Shown: piece after piece, positions 2,503-16,310 of the stretch
Layout of the letters: each line of letters begins with the position of its first letter
Numbering within the stretch: the first letter of the stretch is position 1
Source of the DNA: an uncultured Porphyromonadaceae bacterium
Lineage (GTDB): Bacteria > Bacteroidota > Bacteroidia > Bacteroidales > Muribaculaceae
Direction: 5' to 3'
NCBI GenBank assembly: GCA_900546835.1
Contig: UREH01000017.1
Coordinates: 1 to 23,461, forward strand
Length of the DNA stretch: 23,461 nt
Made by a program: the position numbers and the translations under genes
Notes under the pieces: model-generated
Databases searched by the model: none
Told to the model about the DNA's origin: nothing
What the model saw: only the letters and a program-made list of their open reading frames with translations

Positions 2503-4710
2503 ATGATACAAACCGTAAAAAAACGCGACGGTCGCGTCGTGGGCTACAACGAAGAGAAAATCAAGGCCGCCATCCGCAAGGCCATGTTGCAAACCCCTCT
2601 CGGCGAAGACGAGGCACTGATTCAGAAAATCGCTGACCGCATCAGCATTTCCGGCAAGGAGCAGATGACCGTAGAAGAGATTCAGGACCGCGTGGAACTG
2701 GAACTCATGAAATCTCCGCGCAAGGAAGTGGCCAAACGCTATATCGCCTATCGCGACCAGCGCAGCATAGCCCGACGCGCCAAGACCCGCGACATCTTCC
2801 TGGAAATCATCGAGACGAAAAACAACGACATCACCCGCGAGAACGCCAACATGAACACCGACTCGCCCGCGGGAATGATGATGAAATTCGCCTCCGAAAC
2901 GACCAAGCCCTTTGTTGACGACTACCTTCTCTCGGCTGAAGCACGCGACGCCGTGCGCCACGGGTATCTTCACATCCACGACAAGGACTACTACCCCACC
3001 AAATCGCTCACTTGCGTGCAGCACCCGCTCGAAAAGATTCTGCAGAACGGATTCATCGCCGGCCACGGCGAATCGCGCCCCGCCAAGCGCATAGAGACCG
3101 CCAGCGTAATCGCATGCATATCGCTGGAGACCGCGCAGAACGAGATGCACGGCGGTCAGGCCATACCCGCCTTCGACTTCTATCTCGCTCCGTTCGTGCG
3201 CTCCTCATTCATCGAGGAACTCAAGAAAGCCGAGCAGATAACCGGCCTCGACCTGAGCGACGCCTACAACGCACCGCTCGACGACTACATCAGCAAATCG
3301 CTTGAAGGCCTGGAGGGCCGTGAACGCGCCATACAGCATGCCATAAACTGCACTGTAAGCCGCGTGCATCAGTCGATGGAGGCCTTCATCCACAATATGA
3401 ACACCATCCACTCGCGCGGCGGCAACCAGGTTGTGTTCAGCTCGATCAACTACGGTACCGACACCTCGGCCGAGGGCCGCTGCGTGATCCGCGAACTCCT
3501 CCATTCCACCTACGAAGGCGTAGGCAACGGCGCCACAGCCATCTTCCCCATCCAGATCTGGAAAAAGAAAACCGGCGTGAACTACCGCGAGAGCGACCCC
3601 AACTACGACCTGTACCGTCTGGCCTGCAAGGTGACCGCACGGCGCTTCTTCCCCAACTTCGTGAACCTCGACGCCACATTCAACCAGCATGAGGACTGGC
3701 GCGCCGACGACCCACGCCGCTACGAGCACGAGGTAGCCACCATGGGATGCCGCACCCGCGTGTTCGAAAACCGCTACGGAGCGAAAACATCGATTGGCCG
3801 AGGCAACATCAGCTTCTCCACCATAAATATCGTGCGACTGGCCATCGAATGTATGAACATACAGGACAAGGACGAGCGCATCGAACGCTTCTTCACCCGT
3901 CTGGACGACCTGCTTGAAATCACGGCGCGTCAGCTCTGCGACCGCTACAACTTCCAGAAGACGGCCCTTGTGAAGCAGTTCCCCCTGCTCATGTCGCGCC
4001 TTTGGAACGGAGCCGAAAACCTCGCTCCCAACGATACCATCGAGAGCGTAATCAACCAGGGAACACTCGGCATCGGATTCATAGGCCTGGCCGAATGTCT
4101 GATTGCACTCGTAGGCAAGCACCACGGCGAGTCGGAGGACGCCCAGCGCCTGGGTCTGCGCATCGTAAGTCATATGCGCTCCAAAGCAAATGAATTCTCC
4201 GAGCGCTACAACCATAACTTCTCGGTTCTCGCCACTCCCGCCGAAGGCCTTTCCGGAAAATTCACCACGAAAGACCGCAAAACCTTCGGCAGCATTCCCG
4301 GCATCACCGACAAAATCTACTATACGAACTCAAACCACGTGCCGGTATACTACAAATGTTCGCCGCGCCATAAAGCCAAAATCGAAGGTCCCTACCACGA
4401 ACTGACCCGAGGCGGCCACATATTTTATGTGGAAATCGACGGCGATGCCACCCACAACCCGCAGGCAATCGCCGACATTGTCGACCTGATGGACAGCAAC
4501 AACATAGGCTACTGCTCGGTGAACCACAACCGCAACCGCTGCATGGACTGCGGATATGAGGACGCCCAGGAGGACCTTGAAGTATGTCCCACCTGCGGCA
4601 GCCGCCATATCGACAAACTCCAGCGCATCACCGGCTATCTCGTAGGCACTACCGACCGATGGAATTCGGCGAAACTCGCCGAATTGGCCGACCGCGTGGT
4701 CCACAAGTAA
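2503..4710 (+). CDS. nrdD: Anaerobic (class III) ribonucleoside-triphosphate reductase
   Basis: 735 aa, close to the usual 700-740. It reduces ribonucleoside triphosphates to deoxyribonucleotides without oxygen, using a glycyl radical. An ATP-cone allosteric domain occupies roughly residues 3-90 (KKRDGRVVGYNEEKI). In the catalytic barrel C171 (LTCVQ) and C416 (MGCRTRV) match the conserved active-site cysteines. Near the end, C680, C683, C695 and C698 form the zinc site, followed by RITGYL with G711 as the radical glycine. The ATG at 2503 puts the ATP cone at the N-terminus as expected. The activase gene nrdG lies 59 nt downstream. A promoter, a hairpin and direct repeats upstream suggest regulated expression. 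All key residues are present. Confidence 0.98.
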   Translation: MIQTVKKRDGRVVGYNEEKIKAAIRKAMLQTPLGEDEALIQKIADRISISGKEQMTVEEIQDRVELELMKSPRKEVAKRYIAYRDQRSIARRAKTRDIFLEIIETKNNDITRENANMNTDSPAGMMMKFASETTKPFVDDYLLSAEARDAVRHGYLHIHDKDYYPTKSLTCVQHPLEKILQNGFIAGHGESRPAKRIETASVIACISLETAQNEMHGGQAIPAFDFYLAPFVRSSFIEELKKAEQITGLDLSDAYNAPLDDYISKSLEGLEGRERAIQHAINCTVSRVHQSMEAFIHNMNTIHSRGGNQVVFSSINYGTDTSAEGRCVIRELLHSTYEGVGNGATAIFPIQIWKKKTGVNYRESDPNYDLYRLACKVTARRFFPNFVNLDATFNQHEDWRADDPRRYEHEVATMGCRTRVFENRYGAKTSIGRGNISFSTINIVRLAIECMNIQDKDERIERFFTRLDDLLEITARQLCDRYNFQKTALVKQFPLLMSRLWNGAENLAPNDTIESVINQGTLGIGFIGLAECLIALVGKHHGESEDAQRLGLRIVSHMRSKANEFSERYNHNFSVLATPAEGLSGKFTTKDRKTFGSIPGITDKIYYTNSNHVPVYYKCSPRHKAKIEGPYHELTRGGHIFYVEIDGDATHNPQAIADIVDLMDSNNIGYCSVNHNRNRCMDCGYEDAQEDLEVCPTCGSRHIDKLQRITGYLVGTTDRWNSAKLAELADRVVHK

Positions 4711-10634: not shown

Positions 10635-11066
10635 TCAGCGCAGCCGGTCGGCAGCGCGGAGCAGACGTTCGTCATGACGGATGCCACGATAGGCCAGTAC
10701 CGCCGAAACCAAAGCCCCGAGAAGCAGGAAAATGCTTCCGAGCCACTCGACCCTCGTGCCTGCGCCAGCACCCCACGAAAGGAGGTAGCAAACTTCCGTA
10801 ACCATTACGACCACGATAAGAAGCATCGATACAAGCGTAACGGTGCGCTGACGGGCCGTATTCTTATAAAGGAAAATGGCTATGAAAAGAAGGAGTGCCA
10901 CCACCCCGTCGACCACAAACAGCACAGGGATATCGGCCGGGCGAAGGAAAGTCGCGCTTTCAGGCGACATATCGTCGGCTATCGAAGCCATCGGAACAAA
11001 GCAGAATACTGCGGCCAGGATTGCCGCCATAAGCAACCATACGGTTTGCCAACGTTGAATTACCAT
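10635..11066 (-). CDS. DUF4293 family integral membrane protein
   Basis: 143 aa with an N-terminus (MVIQRWQTVWLL) and four hydrophobic helices (about 8-26, 47-67, 75-95, 108-127) typical of the Bacteroidetes-specific DUF4293 family. No function is established for the family and no catalytic motif is visible. The C-terminus is Arg-rich and probably cytoplasmic. It lies 46 nt downstream of the DUF695 gene on the same strand, so the two are probably co-transcribed. Its stop codon is only 3 nt from the convergent stop of the sensor kinase gene, where a short GCTGA/TCAGC inverted repeat overlaps both ends. Confidence 0.82.
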   Translation of the reverse strand: MVIQRWQTVWLLMAAILAAVFCFVPMASIADDMSPESATFLRPADIPVLFVVDGVVALLLFIAIFLYKNTARQRTVTLVSMLLIVVVMVTEVCYLLSWGAGAGTRVEWLGSIFLLLGALVSAVLAYRGIRHDERLLRAADRLR

Positions 11067-11112
11067 AATCTATAAGTCGTTTTACAATTAATAATCAGGA
11101 AATCATTGGGCA

Positions 11113-11604
11113 TCAGTCGGATTCATCTGCGTCGTCGGATTCGTATACGTCGGGGACCTCCCCGCTGTCGAGCTCATCGTCGACACGGCGCACCTGAGAG
11201 AGCATCGAACCATATTCCTCCCAGTCCGGGTCCTCAAAAGCCTCGAACTCAAGCGGGAGAGCCGGGAAATCGGTCAGAGCCTCGTTGAACTTACGCTGGA
11301 AAATATGGAGACTCAGCGTATAGAATACCATCGTGCGGCTGCCGTTGCCGGTGTAGATACCCGTCAGCACCGCCACAGGGTCGGCCTTGAGCACACTCTG
11401 CAGAGCGTCGGCCACAGCCTCAAGCTCATGACCGAGACTCTCAGGCGGCATACCGCCTGCCGCCGGCTCATAAGGCCATTCCACCTCTACGCGAAACCTG
11501 AAACGCGGATTCTCGCGGAAGCGGCTCACGTCGGTACGCACCGTGCACATAACCAGATTTTCACCCTCGATACTTTCGAAGGGAGCAGTAATCCAATTTG
11601 ACAT
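11113..11604 (-). CDS. DUF695 domain-containing protein
   Basis: 163 aa, soluble, no signal peptide or membrane segment. The sequence (NWITAPFE at the start, NPRFRFRVEVEWPY, DPVAVLTGIYTG, VFYTLSLHIFQRKFNEAL) matches what I know of DUF695 proteins in Bacteroidetes. The family has no established biochemical role. The last 30 residues are strongly acidic with many Asp and Glu, ending DDADESD, a likely disordered tail. The ATG at 11602-11604 is the first in frame. A minus-strand TAACTTTG at 11806-11799 is a plausible promoter, giving a long leader that contains three copies of a dispersed repeat. Confidence 0.75.
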   Translation of the reverse strand: MSNWITAPFESIEGENLVMCTVRTDVSRFRENPRFRFRVEVEWPYEPAAGGMPPESLGHELEAVADALQSVLKADPVAVLTGIYTGNGSRTMVFYTLSLHIFQRKFNEALTDFPALPLEFEAFEDPDWEEYGSMLSQVRRVDDELDSGEVPDVYESDDADESD

Positions 11605-11864: not shown

Positions 11865-14309
11865 TTGATATATCCTGAAACATTTGAAGATAAAATCGGT
11901 TTCACTGCCATAAGGCATGAACTGTCGGCAAACTGCTCCGGAGAAAAAGGGAAAGAGTATGCTGAGGCAATGCGTTTTTCCACCGATCCGGAGGAGATAA
12001 TCCTCGCATTGGAACGAACCGCAGAGATGCTCTCGATTCTCACCTCGGGGGAAGCGTTCCCGCTGGGTGGTCTACACAATGTGGCACCGGCATTGATGCG
12101 CTGCCGCGTGGAGGGCGCCTCGCTTACTCTTGAGGAACTACATCGCCTGCGCCAGACGCTCGTCAGTTCCGCCGAAGTCGCGTTTTTTTTCTCCTCGCAT
12201 ACATCCGACGAAGCAACGCCAGCATTTCCGCGTCTCAGCGAGCTTTGCAGTGACATCGAGTGTTTCCCCTCGATTCTGAAGACTATAGGGCGCCTGATCG
12301 ACGACACAGGCGAGATGCTCGACACCGCCTCGCCCGAACTCGGCAGAATCCGTCGCGAGCTTCAGCGAGTGCGCGGCTCGGTGGGAGCCATAATGCGGCG
12401 CGTAATGGCATCGGCCGCCGAAGCCGGAATGCTCGACAAAGATGCCGCCCCCACCATCCGCGACGGGCGCCTCGTGCTGCCGATAGCGCCGATGCATAAA
12501 CGGAAGATCCAGGGCATCGTACACGATGAATCGGCTACCGGCAAGACATGCTATATCGAACCGGCCGAAGTGGTGGAAGCCAACAACCGTACACGCGAAC
12601 TTGAAATAGAGGAATTGCGCGAGATAGCGCGCATCCTCCAGGAGTTCACGGCCTCGATACGCCCCGACATCCCGGCGATACTCCGCAGTTACGATACTCT
12701 CGGGCATTTTGATTTTATTGCCGCCAAAGCACGCATGGCGCGCGACTGCGACGCCACGCTGCCTCATATCGAAATGCGGGAAGCCCTGGAATGGTATCAT
12801 GCCGTTCATCCGGGACTGCTGCAGTCGCTGCGCCGGCAGAACAAAGAAATCGTTCCGCTCGACATACGTCTAACCCCTGAGAGCCGCATATTGGTGATTT
12901 CGGGGCCGAATGCCGGCGGCAAGTCGGTGACATTGAAAACCGTGGGTGTCATTCAGTACATGATGCAGTGCGGAATGCTCCCACCGGTCTACGAAAATTC
13001 GCGTATGGGTATTTTCGAAAGCATCTTCATCGACATCGGCGACGACCAGTCGATTGACGACGACCTTTCGACCTATAGTTCCCACCTGCGCAATATGCGC
13101 GTGCTGCTCGGAGGCAATGAGTCGTCGCTTATCCTCATAGACGAATTCGGAGGTGGCACGGAGCCTCAGATTGGCGGCGCAATCGCCCAGGCTCTCCTCC
13201 ATGCATTCAACGACCGGCATATGTGGGGCATCGTGACAACACACTACCAGAATCTGAAACATTACGCGTCGGAGACTCCCGGCCTGACAAACGGCTCCAT
13301 GCTCTACGACCGCCAGAAGATGCGTCCGCTGTTCCGGCTCTCCATCGGACAGCCCGGGAGCTCGTTTGCAATCGAGATAGCCCGTAAATCCGGACTGCCG
13401 GCAGATATCATCGACGAAGCCGCGGAGATTGTGGGAAGCGACTATGTGAACCTCGACAAATATCTTCTCGACATTGCCCGCGACAAACGCTACTGGGAGA
13501 ACAAGCGCATGCAGATCCGCCAGAAAGAGAAGAAAATAGAGCAGACACTCGAGCGCTACGAAAACGAGGCTGAGACTCTGCGGGCCAACAGGCGCACCAT
13601 TCTCGCCGAAGCAAAGGAGGAAGCGAAGAAGATACTTGAAGGGAGCAACGCAACAATCGAACGCACCATACGCGAAATTCGCGAGAGCCAGGCGGATAAG
13701 GAACGGACACGCGCAGCCCGCGCCGAGATGCAGAAAGAGCGCCAGCGACTGGCCTCGGAAACTCCCGCAGCCGACCATACCCTTCTGAAAAAAGCGCCCA
13801 AAGCGAAGAACCCGAAGCAAACCAGCGCCTCGGCAGCGGCGAAACCTCTTGCCATAGGCGATTTCGTAAAACTCGACGGACAGGGCGCTCCCGGCACCAT
13901 CATCGATCTGCAGGGTCAGAATGCCATGGTGGCTTTCGGCCAACTGAAAACCAGCGTGAAACTGAGCCGCCTGACCCCCACCCTTTCCCGACCGGCGACG
14001 GCCGCCGGTGCGGCATCGTTCGTAAGCGAACAGACTACTTCGGCCATCAGGCAGAAACAGCTACAGTTCAAGCGTGAGCTCGATGTGCGCGGCATGCGTG
14101 TGGACGAGGCTCTTCAGGCCGTTACATATTTTCTTGACGATGCCATTCAGTTCAACCAGGGAGAAGTGCGGATTCTCCACGGCACCGGCACAGGGGCTCT
14201 CCGTCAGGCCATCCGTCAGGCCCTCGACACCACTCCGGGAGTGGCGTCGTACCGCGATGAGCACCCGCAATTCGGCGGAGCAGGAATCACTGTGATAACC
14301 TTGGCATAG
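11865..14309 (+). CDS. mutS2: Endonuclease MutS2 (MutS-like ATPase with Smr domain)
   Basis: 814 aa from the TTG at 11865. The protein then begins with IYPETFEDKIGF, the usual MutS2 N-terminus. An in-frame TTG 30 nt earlier adds ten atypical residues and overlaps the promoter. Domains: MutS core and clamp helices (about 1-320), an ABC-type ATPase with Walker A GPNAGGKS at 347-354 and Walker B ending in D426 and E427, a charged coiled coil (about 500-620), and a C-terminal Smr nuclease domain with LDVRG (739-743) and the HGTGTG motif. MutS2 binds branched DNA and suppresses recombination. In Bacillus it also binds collided ribosomes. It acts outside mismatch repair. The operator region is shared with the divergent DUF695 gene. 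No ATG start is available near the N-terminus. Confidence 0.95.
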   Translation: MIYPETFEDKIGFTAIRHELSANCSGEKGKEYAEAMRFSTDPEEIILALERTAEMLSILTSGEAFPLGGLHNVAPALMRCRVEGASLTLEELHRLRQTLVSSAEVAFFFSSHTSDEATPAFPRLSELCSDIECFPSILKTIGRLIDDTGEMLDTASPELGRIRRELQRVRGSVGAIMRRVMASAAEAGMLDKDAAPTIRDGRLVLPIAPMHKRKIQGIVHDESATGKTCYIEPAEVVEANNRTRELEIEELREIARILQEFTASIRPDIPAILRSYDTLGHFDFIAAKARMARDCDATLPHIEMREALEWYHAVHPGLLQSLRRQNKEIVPLDIRLTPESRILVISGPNAGGKSVTLKTVGVIQYMMQCGMLPPVYENSRMGIFESIFIDIGDDQSIDDDLSTYSSHLRNMRVLLGGNESSLILIDEFGGGTEPQIGGAIAQALLHAFNDRHMWGIVTTHYQNLKHYASETPGLTNGSMLYDRQKMRPLFRLSIGQPGSSFAIEIARKSGLPADIIDEAAEIVGSDYVNLDKYLLDIARDKRYWENKRMQIRQKEKKIEQTLERYENEAETLRANRRTILAEAKEEAKKILEGSNATIERTIREIRESQADKERTRAARAEMQKERQRLASETPAADHTLLKKAPKAKNPKQTSASAAAKPLAIGDFVKLDGQGAPGTIIDLQGQNAMVAFGQLKTSVKLSRLTPTLSRPATAAGAASFVSEQTTSAIRQKQLQFKRELDVRGMRVDEALQAVTYFLDDAIQFNQGEVRILHGTGTGALRQAIRQALDTTPGVASYRDEHPQFGGAGITVITLA

Positions 14310-14362
14310 AGGCCGATGTGGCTTCTGCATTCGCTGAAACGCGCAAATAAACCCACCCAACG

Positions 14363-14394
14363 TTTGCAGAATAGAACCAAAAGATTTAAATTTG
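14363..14394 (+). promoter_or_regulatory. Consensus promoter in front of a non-coding region
   Basis: TTTG at 14363-14366, a 20-nt spacer and TAAATTTG at 14387-14394 form one of the best promoter matches in the window. It points into sequence with no credible protein gene but with stable hairpins and two terminators, implying an RNA product starting near 14400. Confidence 0.7.
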
Positions 14395-14400
14395 CGTTAT

Positions 14401-14693
14401 AAAAGCAAAAGGAAGCAGCGGGGAGAGCCCCCTGCCAGACACCGGAGGCCGACATAGAGAATCCAATCCGGTATACGTTTTGAAATATTGCCGCATCAAA
14501 GTTGATTGGGAAACTCATCAAATTTTTATGAAATGCCGAGACAAACCCGACGCGCGATGGCGGGCCCCGGCGGTGATTCCGATTGCCGCAGCCGGAGAGG
14601 CTTTACAGCCCCGGCCAGGCGGATTACAAAGCGCGGAGGGAGCTCAAAACCTGTCATTCGGAGTTTCATCGCATCCTTTGATGCGGCTTTTTT
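14401..14693 (+). ncRNA. Putative structured non-coding RNA, unidentified, about 290 nt
   Basis: The segment sits between a consensus promoter and an intrinsic terminator. Foldable elements in order: 14415-14435, 8 bp with one bulged C and an AGAG loop; 14441-14472, ACCGGA with TCCGGT; 14502-14521, a stem capped by a GAAA tetraloop; then a domain closed by long-range pairing of 14528-14533 with 14664-14669, 14536-14539 with 14658-14661 and 14540-14543 with 14652-14655. Inside that domain are CGCGC (14551-14555) with GCGCG (14631-14635), an 8-bp hairpin with a UCCG loop at 14570-14589, and a hairpin at 14591-14615. No hallmark of RNase P RNA (GAGGAAAGUCC), tmRNA or SRP RNA is seen. A divergent 6S-like RNA or a lineage-specific regulator remain possible. 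Boundaries are inferred. Confidence 0.6.
14670..14693 (+). terminator. Intrinsic terminator of the putative ncRNA
   Basis: CGCATC (14670-14675), a CTTT loop and GATGCG (14680-14685) form a perfect 6-bp stem, followed by GC and six T at 14688-14693. It abuts the closing helix of the RNA domain. Confidence 0.8.
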
Positions 14694-14699
14694 ATACAG

Positions 14700-14743
14700 C
14701 GAGGGGCTGAACCGTATACGGTTCAGCCCCTCGTTTCTTTTTG
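14700..14743 (+). terminator. Second terminator: 34-bp perfect palindrome with T-rich tail
   Basis: Bases 14700-14733 are fully self-complementary (17 bp per arm, centre GTATAC), followed on the plus strand by GTTTCTTTTTG. It lies 6 nt after the first terminator and 23 nt from the end of the convergent protease gene. The minus-strand side lacks a T-run, so for that gene it may only be a 3' protective stem. Confidence 0.75.
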
Positions 14744-14756
14744 TGGTGTCGACGCG

Positions 14757-16310
14757 TCAGTCGTCCGCGCCGTTGCCGCTCAGATCGACGGCATAATACA
14801 CCTTGCGTCCGGTAGGATAAATACCGGAGATAAACATCACGCGGTCGGAGGCTCCGGAGGCCATTATCTCCTTGTAGACCTTCTCTACATCGTCGGCCGA
14901 GGCGATGCGGACGCCATTGATATCAAGTATTACAAAACCTTCCTTGATGCCGCTGCGTCGGAAAAGGCCGTCGGACGTTAAGCCCGACACCTGCACGCCA
15001 CCTGCCACGCCGAGCTGACGGCGCGTATCGGCAGACAGCTCCTTGAAAGCGCAACCGAGGGCGGAAAAATCGTCGGCCTTCGAAAGGGCTGTGCCACCCT
15101 GCGAGTTGCGGAGCGTAACGTCGAGCGATTTCCGCTCATTGTCGCGCACAATCTCCACCTTTATCTTGTCGCCCGGGCGGTACTTGCTAATTTCGCCCTG
15201 CAAGTGTGCCGCAGTATGCGTGGGAGCGTCGTTGATGGCCACGATAACATCACCCACCTCGATACCGGCCTCGAGAGCCGCCGAGCGGTCCTGCACCTCG
15301 CCGACAAGAATGCCGTCGTTGACAGCCGTGATATTCTTCTCCTTGGCAAGCTGAGGAGTAAGTTCCTGATATGCCACTCCGATAACAGCCCGCTGCACGG
15401 CACCGAACTGCCGGATGTCGTTGACCACCTTGGTAACCATCGACGAAGGGATGGCGAACGAATAGCCTACATAATTGCCCGTCTGGGAATAGATGGCGGT
15501 GTTGATGCCGACCAGTTCACCCTTCACGTTGACCAGTGCACCGCCGGAATTGCCCGGGTTTACGGCTGCGTCGGTCTGGATATAGCTTTCGATACCCATC
15601 GGGCGACCCATGGCCGCCTGACCGACACTGCGTGCCTTGGCGCTGACGATACCGGTGGTGACGGTAGATGTAAAACCAAATGGATTACCCACGGCCAAAA
15701 CCCATTCGCCTACACGAAGTGCGTCGCTGTCGCCGATAGGAATCACCGGAAGATTCTTTGCGTCGATTTTCAGAAGTGCCACATCGGTAGCGGGATCGGA
15801 ACCCACCACAGTGGCGTTATAGATGCTGTTGTCGTTGAGTGTCACCTCAAGACGGTCTGCGCCCTCAATTACATGGTTGTTGGTTACAATATATCCGTCG
15901 GAAGCCACTATGACACCCGAGCCGAGACCGCGGGCCTGCTCCTGCGGTTTTTCCTGGCGGCGCTGCTGACGCGGCTGCTGGCGTCGCGGCGCACCGAAAA
16001 AGAACTCATATAGAGGGTCGGAGAAAAAGTCGCCGCCCTGCCCCTGCATCTGCCGCGATGGAGCCGAAGCGTAATTCTTGATGCTCACAACGCCATTGAT
16101 CGTGCTTTCGGCGGCATGAGTGAAATCCGTGGGAGGAGTAAGCGAATTGCTGACTGTGAAAAGCCCTCCGGAGGCACCCGCGGATGCCGCCGTCGCAATC
16201 TCCGGAGTCTCGGTATGAGACTGAACGGAATTAATGGCCATGGCAGTGAGAGTGGCACTTGCCACAGATGCACCGCAGGCCGAGAGAATGATTTTGGAAT
16301 ATAGTTTCAT
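14757..16310 (-). CDS. Do/HtrA family periplasmic serine protease (Deg-like)
   Basis: 517 aa from the ATG at 16308-16310, chosen because a signal peptide-like segment follows directly (MKLYSKIILSACGASVASATLT). An in-frame start at 16376 would put 22 polar residues before it. The trypsin-like domain has the triad H146 (TNNHVIEG), D176 (DPATDVALLK) and S255 (GNSGGA). A Gln/Arg-rich linker at 108-126 sits where HtrA proteins have a flexible regulatory loop. Two PDZ domains follow (about 300-395 and 425-510). The enzyme degrades or refolds misfolded envelope proteins. The organisation matches DegP/DegQ-type proteases, but which E. coli member it equals cannot be said. It is divergent from the superoxide dismutase gene, with 339 bp between them. 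Confidence 0.93.
   Translation of the reverse strand: MKLYSKIILSACGASVASATLTAMAINSVQSHTETPEIATAASAGASGGLFTVSNSLTPPTDFTHAAESTINGVVSIKNYASAPSRQMQGQGGDFFSDPLYEFFFGAPRRQQPRQQRRQEKPQEQARGLGSGVIVASDGYIVTNNHVIEGADRLEVTLNDNSIYNATVVGSDPATDVALLKIDAKNLPVIPIGDSDALRVGEWVLAVGNPFGFTSTVTTGIVSAKARSVGQAAMGRPMGIESYIQTDAAVNPGNSGGALVNVKGELVGINTAIYSQTGNYVGYSFAIPSSMVTKVVNDIRQFGAVQRAVIGVAYQELTPQLAKEKNITAVNDGILVGEVQDRSAALEAGIEVGDVIVAINDAPTHTAAHLQGEISKYRPGDKIKVEIVRDNERKSLDVTLRNSQGGTALSKADDFSALGCAFKELSADTRRQLGVAGGVQVSGLTSDGLFRRSGIKEGFVILDINGVRIASADDVEKVYKEIMASGASDRVMFISGIYPTGRKVYYAVDLSGNGADD

Follow-up and report, generated by a model that had tools for sequence, protein, structure and literature searches.

The region between the mutS2 gene and the HtrA-type protease gene in the window (the whole stretch of DNA analysed, 23,461 nucleotides) encodes, as a gene of its own, Bacteroidales-1, a regulatory RNA already known from gut Bacteroidales. 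In a search with the Rfam covariance models, RF01693 (Bacteroidales-1) matched positions 14489 to 14694 on the forward strand over the whole model (positions 1-179 of 179), with 112.6 bits against a cut-off of 60 and an E value of 2.7e-18, and this was the sole Rfam match in the window at curated cut-offs. Rfam labels the family "6S-Bacteroidales RNA suggested", the word "suggested" being Rfam's own. The original prediction had described a gene for a structured RNA, about 290 nt long and transcribed from its own promoter, and the analysis supports this. It had also called the RNA unidentified and had noted that the RNA would count as known if it matched an established family, 6S RNA for instance, and the Rfam check returned such a match. 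Its exclusion of RNase P RNA, tmRNA and SRP RNA holds, none of which matched at curated cut-offs in the window or at E values up to 1 in positions 14300-14800. A tRNA or tmRNA identity was ruled out, none being found in a search, and the other Rfam families recorded in 14300-14800 were just weak mir-55 and Rev72 matches at a palindrome. The candidate novel RNA, sensed as structured and not recognised earlier, thus receives the name of a known family, with two modest additions: a covarying closing stem that is missing from the Rfam consensus, and a hairpin in the 5' leader.

The family is carried as a single copy wherever it is matched. RF01693 was found once in each of 12 of 12 genomes reached via loci selected by core sequence, and in 138 of the 149 genomes sampled from a related family, the one to which the genome with Muribaculaceae locus L025 belongs, again with one match per genome. 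A shortened search detected it in 48 of 198 genomes of the order (36 above cut-off), and it was detected in 4 of 148 genomes of the phylum (1 above cut-off), 12 to 16 candidates being scored per genome at both levels. The closest relatives among the loci examined are as much as 78% identical across some 200 nt, with alignments that end within the leader, and they suggest a Muribaculaceae origin for the window. Bacteroidales-1 was first described, according to passages of the original paper, as a Bacteroidales motif (Weinberg et al., 2010, PMC2864571), and passages of another report annotate it in Porphyromonas gingivalis (PMC5771137). The window RNA contains the conserved cores of RF01693, namely GGGAAACUCAUCA, CCGAGACAA, AUGGCGGGC, GGAUUACAAAG, CUCAAA and CGGAGUUUC. 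It differs from the model in that the Rfam consensus pairs the apical stem only, leaving out the closing stem of the window RNA, and in that the 87-nt leader with its AGAG-loop hairpin falls outside the model. Moreover, the match measures 206 nt against 179 model positions, the extra length lying mostly in the apical arm.

Consensus fold and alternative pairings

The structure was studied in a sequence-only alignment of the window RNA and 114 relatives (115 sequences), for which a consensus fold was obtained with RNAalifold. Both cores were present in 185 of the 221 records searched, and 183 remained after the loss of two at contig edges; removal of near-identical sequences left 117, and dropping L142 and L192, which had odd lengths, left 115. 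Since the pattern loci (at least 118) were picked by exact core, covariation counts cover core-bearing members only and the invariance of the core is partly a product of this selection. Shuffle controls kept the relatedness among sequences in place. From its base to its tip, the consensus fold runs through a closing stem (P1), the inner helix GAAACTC/GAGTTTC and a bubble to an apical arm. Of the 35 pairs in this structure, 24 show changes in both partners (409 such cells against 130.6 in shuffles), and none of 500 shuffles reached the covariation score. Covariation in related genomes, the test named by the original prediction, is therefore present, and it is strong in the closing stem and the apical arm.

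P1 is the longest helix of the RNA and had been overlooked in the first reading. Its arms, GCCGCATCAAAG at 14490-14501 and CTTTGATGCGGC at 14676-14687, form a perfect inverted repeat of 12 pairs, all 12 of which show changes on both sides among the 115 sequences (165 cells against 50.6 in shuffles). The P1 covariation score of 0.412, compared to 0.225 in shuffles, was reached by 0 of 500 shuffles and was lost on sliding the arms, which makes P1 the best supported among the helices counted. The inner closing helix pairs GAAACTC (14510-14516) with GAGTTTC (14661-14667); six of its seven pairs are identical in 115 of 115 sequences, so that covariation is silent for or against it. The central bubble has an A+U-rich 5' strand (14517-14537) that is unpaired in the consensus fold, and a 3' strand (14646-14660) that is unpaired except for one isolated pair. 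The apical arm (14538-14645) opens with an invariant GAG/CTC helix (14538-14540 with 14643-14645), and in its upper stem 10 of 12 pairs have both-side changes in some sequence. The RNA from 14489 to 14693 has a minimum-energy fold of -80.3 kcal/mol (z -2.92, 0 of 200 shuffles as good); with the leader included, the z value is -2.74, with 2 of 200 shuffles as good.

The minimum-energy fold contains the hairpin of TTGAT with ATCAA, the loops UCCG and GAAA and the long-range helix of the original prediction. The last of these is mostly invariant and displays little covariation in the 115 sequences. Within it, an alternative, collapse-type helix (14528-14539 with 14658-14669) is paired in 82.3% of cells and has 15 both-side-change cells against 6.6 in shuffles, 19 of 500 shuffles reaching its score. 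This helix and the inner closing helix compete for the same 3' arm. In the energy model, the isolated window RNA reaches -80.3 kcal/mol in the collapsed form and -77.7 kcal/mol in the form with the inner helix, a difference of 2.6; the isolated RNA is thus predicted to favour slightly a collapsed bubble, and the open bubble rests on the consensus fold. The TTGAT...ATCAA hairpin with its GAAA loop (14502-14521) is an alternative to the helix GAAACTC/GAGTTTC; its pairs, from the outside in, are held in 78 of 112 and then in 38, 92, 104 and 99 of the 115 sequences. 6S RNAs refold during product-RNA synthesis. By analogy, the switch that had been suggested for this hairpin appears a reasonable idea, in the sense that mutually exclusive pairings are predicted. 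A further candidate helix, in which the conserved start (TTATAAAA) would pair with the 3' tail, obtained no support because own pairs were no stronger than mismatched pairs (means of -1.84 and -2.07 kcal/mol, respectively, in 90 sequences).

The intrinsic terminator of the original prediction fared less well. A site scan found the hairpin followed by six T at 14669-14693, with the stem at 14669-14686; as two such sites occur in the window against a shuffle mean of 0.9, terminator evidence alone is not above chance. Five or more T follow the hairpin in 24 of 115 sequences, no such run being seen in the other 91, and its covariation did not exceed that of shuffles (384 of 500 reached its score), and it was thus rejected as a conserved element. 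Conservation at this site is better explained by P1, because the 3' arm of the hairpin lies within the 3' arm of P1. Scans for repeats and terminators detected a second hairpin at 14698-14735 on the same strand, formed by a 20-nt self-complementary repeat with a T-rich tail, which is likely a back-up terminator between convergent genes, towards the HtrA gene.

Promoter, 5' leader and neighbouring genes

Bacteroidota are a phylum with an unusual primary sigma factor. The promoter of the original prediction, TTTG-N20-TAAATTTG at 14363-14394, was confirmed, the exact pattern occurring twice in the window compared to a shuffle mean of 0.03. Its -7 box, TAAATTTG, lies at 14387-14394, and the general form TAnnTTTG was found in the roughly 130 nt preceding the RNA in 100 of the 115 sequences (shuffle mean 9.8, maximum 18). 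In 98 of these 100, TTG stands 19 or 20 nt ahead of the box, so the promoter is conserved along with the RNA. The -33 box TTTG (14363-14366), identified by the pattern TTTG-N20-TANNTTTG (0.03 expected in the window), fits the sigma-ABfr promoter consensus as quoted in PMC7366714.

Two further signals emerged from the relatives. The conserved start region CGTTATAAAA (14395-14404), defined by base frequencies in 99 promoters against 96 other sites, has the consensus YRTTATAAAA in promoters of Bacteroidales-1 RNA, and transcription would start near 14400-14404. Where the spacer measures 20 nt, an AAC element between the -33 and -7 boxes (14375-14377) stands at one set position in 54 of 89 promoters of the RNA; none of 62 comparable sites elsewhere in these loci has it. 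Genome-wide, 11 of 12 genomes contain the AAC pattern, with 1 to 11 occurrences each, and it is commoner than a reversed control in 9 of the 12, equal in 2 and rarer in 1. The element is therefore probably the mark of a wider promoter class and no private signal of Bacteroidales-1 RNA, though it is specific to the RNA within the loci examined. The other perfect TTTG-N20-TAnnTTTG promoter of the window is located at 2374-2405, upstream of a 735-aa frame (2503-4710).

The 5' leader (14402-14488, 87 nt) folds with a z value of -2.62, with 1 of 200 shuffles folding equally well. Among relatives, between 31 and 122 nt separate the -7 box from the core, and the window is near the long end. The leader contains a hairpin of the AGAG-loop class, GCAG(C)GGGG-AGAG-CCCCCUGC, at 14415-14435, which with its flanks has a z value of -2.45 (5 of 200 shuffles as good). 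Hairpins of this type were found in 79 of 127 leaders of at least 30 nt, compared to an average of less than one per set in shuffles, and in 60 of 99 after thinning of similar leaders. Two loop classes are counted here, [AG]AGAGA with at least 3 stem pairs around the loop and [AG]GAG with at least 4. The former occurred in 35 of 73 discovery leaders of at least 30 nt (0.44 in shuffles) and in 19 of 54 test leaders (0.28 in shuffles), the second figure being a true test because the loop was defined on the discovery set. The test set derived from 100 further family loci, minus 2 without core, 6 without promoter and 20 with leaders identical to discovery ones; of the resulting 72 leaders, 54 have at least 30 nt. 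Among the remaining leaders, the [AG]GAG tetraloop occurred in 13 of 38 (discovery) and 12 of 35 (test), against 0.25 and 0.30 in shuffles, counts that form no independent test since this class was defined after viewing both sets. Eleven other tetraloops were found 0 to 3 times per set. In the discovery set, stem pairs 1 to 4 were present in 32, 30, 32 and 23 of 37 cases, each beating 500 of 500 shuffles. Elsewhere in the loci, hairpins of the same type were not clearly enriched (23, compared to about 17 expected by a crude estimate), and one of the 23, in L001, is probably that locus's own leader. Three loci titled Dysgonamonadaceae (L006, L070 and L103) carry the leader hairpin. No published description of it was found in the open-access literature by queries that did not name the leader hairpin, and this element, conserved in part of the group with a changing stem, is apparently new.

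The flanking genes had been correctly named, encoding a MutS2-type protein (MutS domain V, Smr) and a trypsin/PDZ protease. The RNA gene follows mutS2 on the same strand and converges with the gene downstream. Neither mutS2 nor the HtrA gene was found close to the RNA in 220 loci, of which 133 or more extend at least 800 nt upstream, and a conserved gene order with these two was rejected. The 274 neighbour proteins, some of which come from the same genome sampled twice, formed 133 clusters, and the two neighbours of the window cluster with none of the others. The largest cluster, with 45 members, is upstream and corresponds to ribosomal protein L20 (for example in L002); L20 was found in 78 of 350 loci, a set with many short or unrelated members, but is missing from the window. 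As neighbours vary between loci, the gene is located elsewhere in the lineage of the window and the RNA most likely works in trans. Upstream of mutS2, the window holds a gene for a DUF695 protein (11113-11604, reverse strand) and a 133-aa frame without a Pfam match (10674-11075, forward strand).

Probable assignment to the 6S class

6S RNA parks RNA polymerase, and the canonical plan of E. coli SsrS and B. subtilis 6S-1 and 6S-2 consists of a closing stem, a central bubble and an apical arm. The window RNA is very probably the 6S RNA of Bacteroidales, which by membership of this class would sequester polymerase and be released by product-RNA synthesis. It shares the overall plan of canonical 6S RNA (RF00013): the closing stem, the large central bubble and the apical stem are all found in the consensus fold and covariation of the 115 sequences. 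The RF00013 model itself gave no match in the window, where its cut-off was not reached, nor in 12 of 12 relatives; it matched 5 control genomes including E. coli and B. subtilis.

Homology to an accepted 6S family comes through 6S-Flavo (RF01685), which matched 21 of 198 genomes at the order level (0 above cut-off) and 17 of 148 at the phylum level (7 above cut-off). RF01693 and RF01685 both matched 5 of the 198 and 3 of the 148 genomes, and in 8 of 8 cases they coincide in place and strand. None of these 8 genomes passes both cut-offs: 5 pass neither and 3 pass one, namely G053 and G209 for RF01693 and G262 for RF01685. In alignments of some of them, AAACUCA...GGAGUUU cores are common to 6S-Flavo and Bacteroidales-1; the 6S-Flavo model gave no match to the window itself. 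The coincidence in position supports one 6S RNA across Bacteroidota. In the passages available from PMC7366714, differential RNA-seq of B. thetaiotaomicron reports a Bacteroides 6S RNA with two classes of product RNA. These passages give no accession, and the RNA in question is presumably RF01693, which also matches in the control Bacteroides ihuae. The alternative pairing of the bubble strands in the window resembles what PMC8876501 names the "central bubble collapse helix" in B. subtilis 6S-1.

The following cycle can be proposed. The sigma-ABfr promoter would give rise to a transcript of about 290 nt including the 87-nt leader, in which the closing stem, the open A+U-rich bubble and the apical arm would mimic an open promoter. 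Under nutrient exhaustion, the RNA would hold sigma-ABfr polymerase. Upon recovery, this enzyme would copy the 5' bubble strand, which by analogy is the likely template side, into a short product RNA. The latter would open the inner closing helix and free its 3' arm (GAGTTTCAT), and the freed arm could then pair with ATGAAAT...CCGA, leading to collapse of the bubble and release of the enzyme. In the lineage of the window, the leader would add an AGAG-type-loop hairpin, possibly a binding or processing site.

Bacteroidales-1 might instead be a trans-acting RNA with another function, for example with a protein partner other than polymerase, its 6S-like layout being coincidental. The functional assignment draws on homology and on studies of other genera, the coincidences with 6S-Flavo are mostly below cut-off, and some core sequences are more invariant than pairing needs, which would also fit protein binding; this last hint is weakened by the partial selection of loci by the same core. 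We consider such a function improbable, given the coincidence of RF01693 and 6S-Flavo in all eight double-matched genomes, the lack of any alternative 6S candidate from RF00013 in the 12 relatives and the product RNAs that passages of PMC7366714 report for Bacteroides 6S RNA. Even less credible, to the point of being hardly worth entertaining, is a cis-acting element, whether the mutS2 3' UTR, an attenuator or a switch acting on an adjacent gene. Its attractions are the mutually exclusive folds, the terminator-like hairpin and the position downstream of mutS2 on the same strand; against these stand the RNA's own conserved promoter, the convergent downstream gene and the variable neighbours, 274 proteins in 133 clusters with the commonest upstream one, L20, absent from the window. 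A 6S RNA acting in trans accordingly remains the preferred reading.

The hairpin of the leader calls for a more tentative view. It may be a functional site for protein binding or processing, a possibility that we hold with some reserve. On this reading, Muribaculaceae and some relatives would produce a 6S RNA born with a 5' domain of about 30 to 100 nt, whose hairpin would be a protein recognition site adding a second control point, a proposal that is likewise conceivable rather than probable; the protein may be a processing nuclease, a transcription-elongation factor or a component of the 6S ribonucleoprotein. A non-functional hairpin, arising by chance or as a by-product of promoter relocation, would agree with its absence, by the criteria used, from 48 of 127 leaders of at least 30 nt and with its presence in just one (L153) of 83 leaders shorter than 30 nt. 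It would also agree with the single stem positions of the smaller test set, which stay within the shuffle range, and with the non-independence of related sequences. This explanation is nevertheless unlikely in view of the excess of both loop classes over shuffles in the discovery and test sets, the persistence of the hairpin after thinning and the stem pairs that beat every discovery-set shuffle. Read as a recognition site, the leader hairpin offers a testable handle on the control of a polymerase-parking RNA in gut Bacteroidales.

A hairpin with a GAGAGA loop also starts the rRNA leader at both 16S loci of a Phocaeicola genome, G008 (L351 and L355). It is absent at four 16S loci of G482 and one of G003, an eighth locus having hardly any upstream DNA. 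In the 6S leaders of the same genomes (L023 and L033), G008 is without the hairpin and G003 has it, and a hairpin common to 6S and rRNA leaders was rejected because no genome examined carries it in both. Finally, near the 6S gene of locus L173, positions 2352-2433 on the reverse strand match the Bacteroidetes small RNA FopS with 46.5 bits, below the cut-off of 56.
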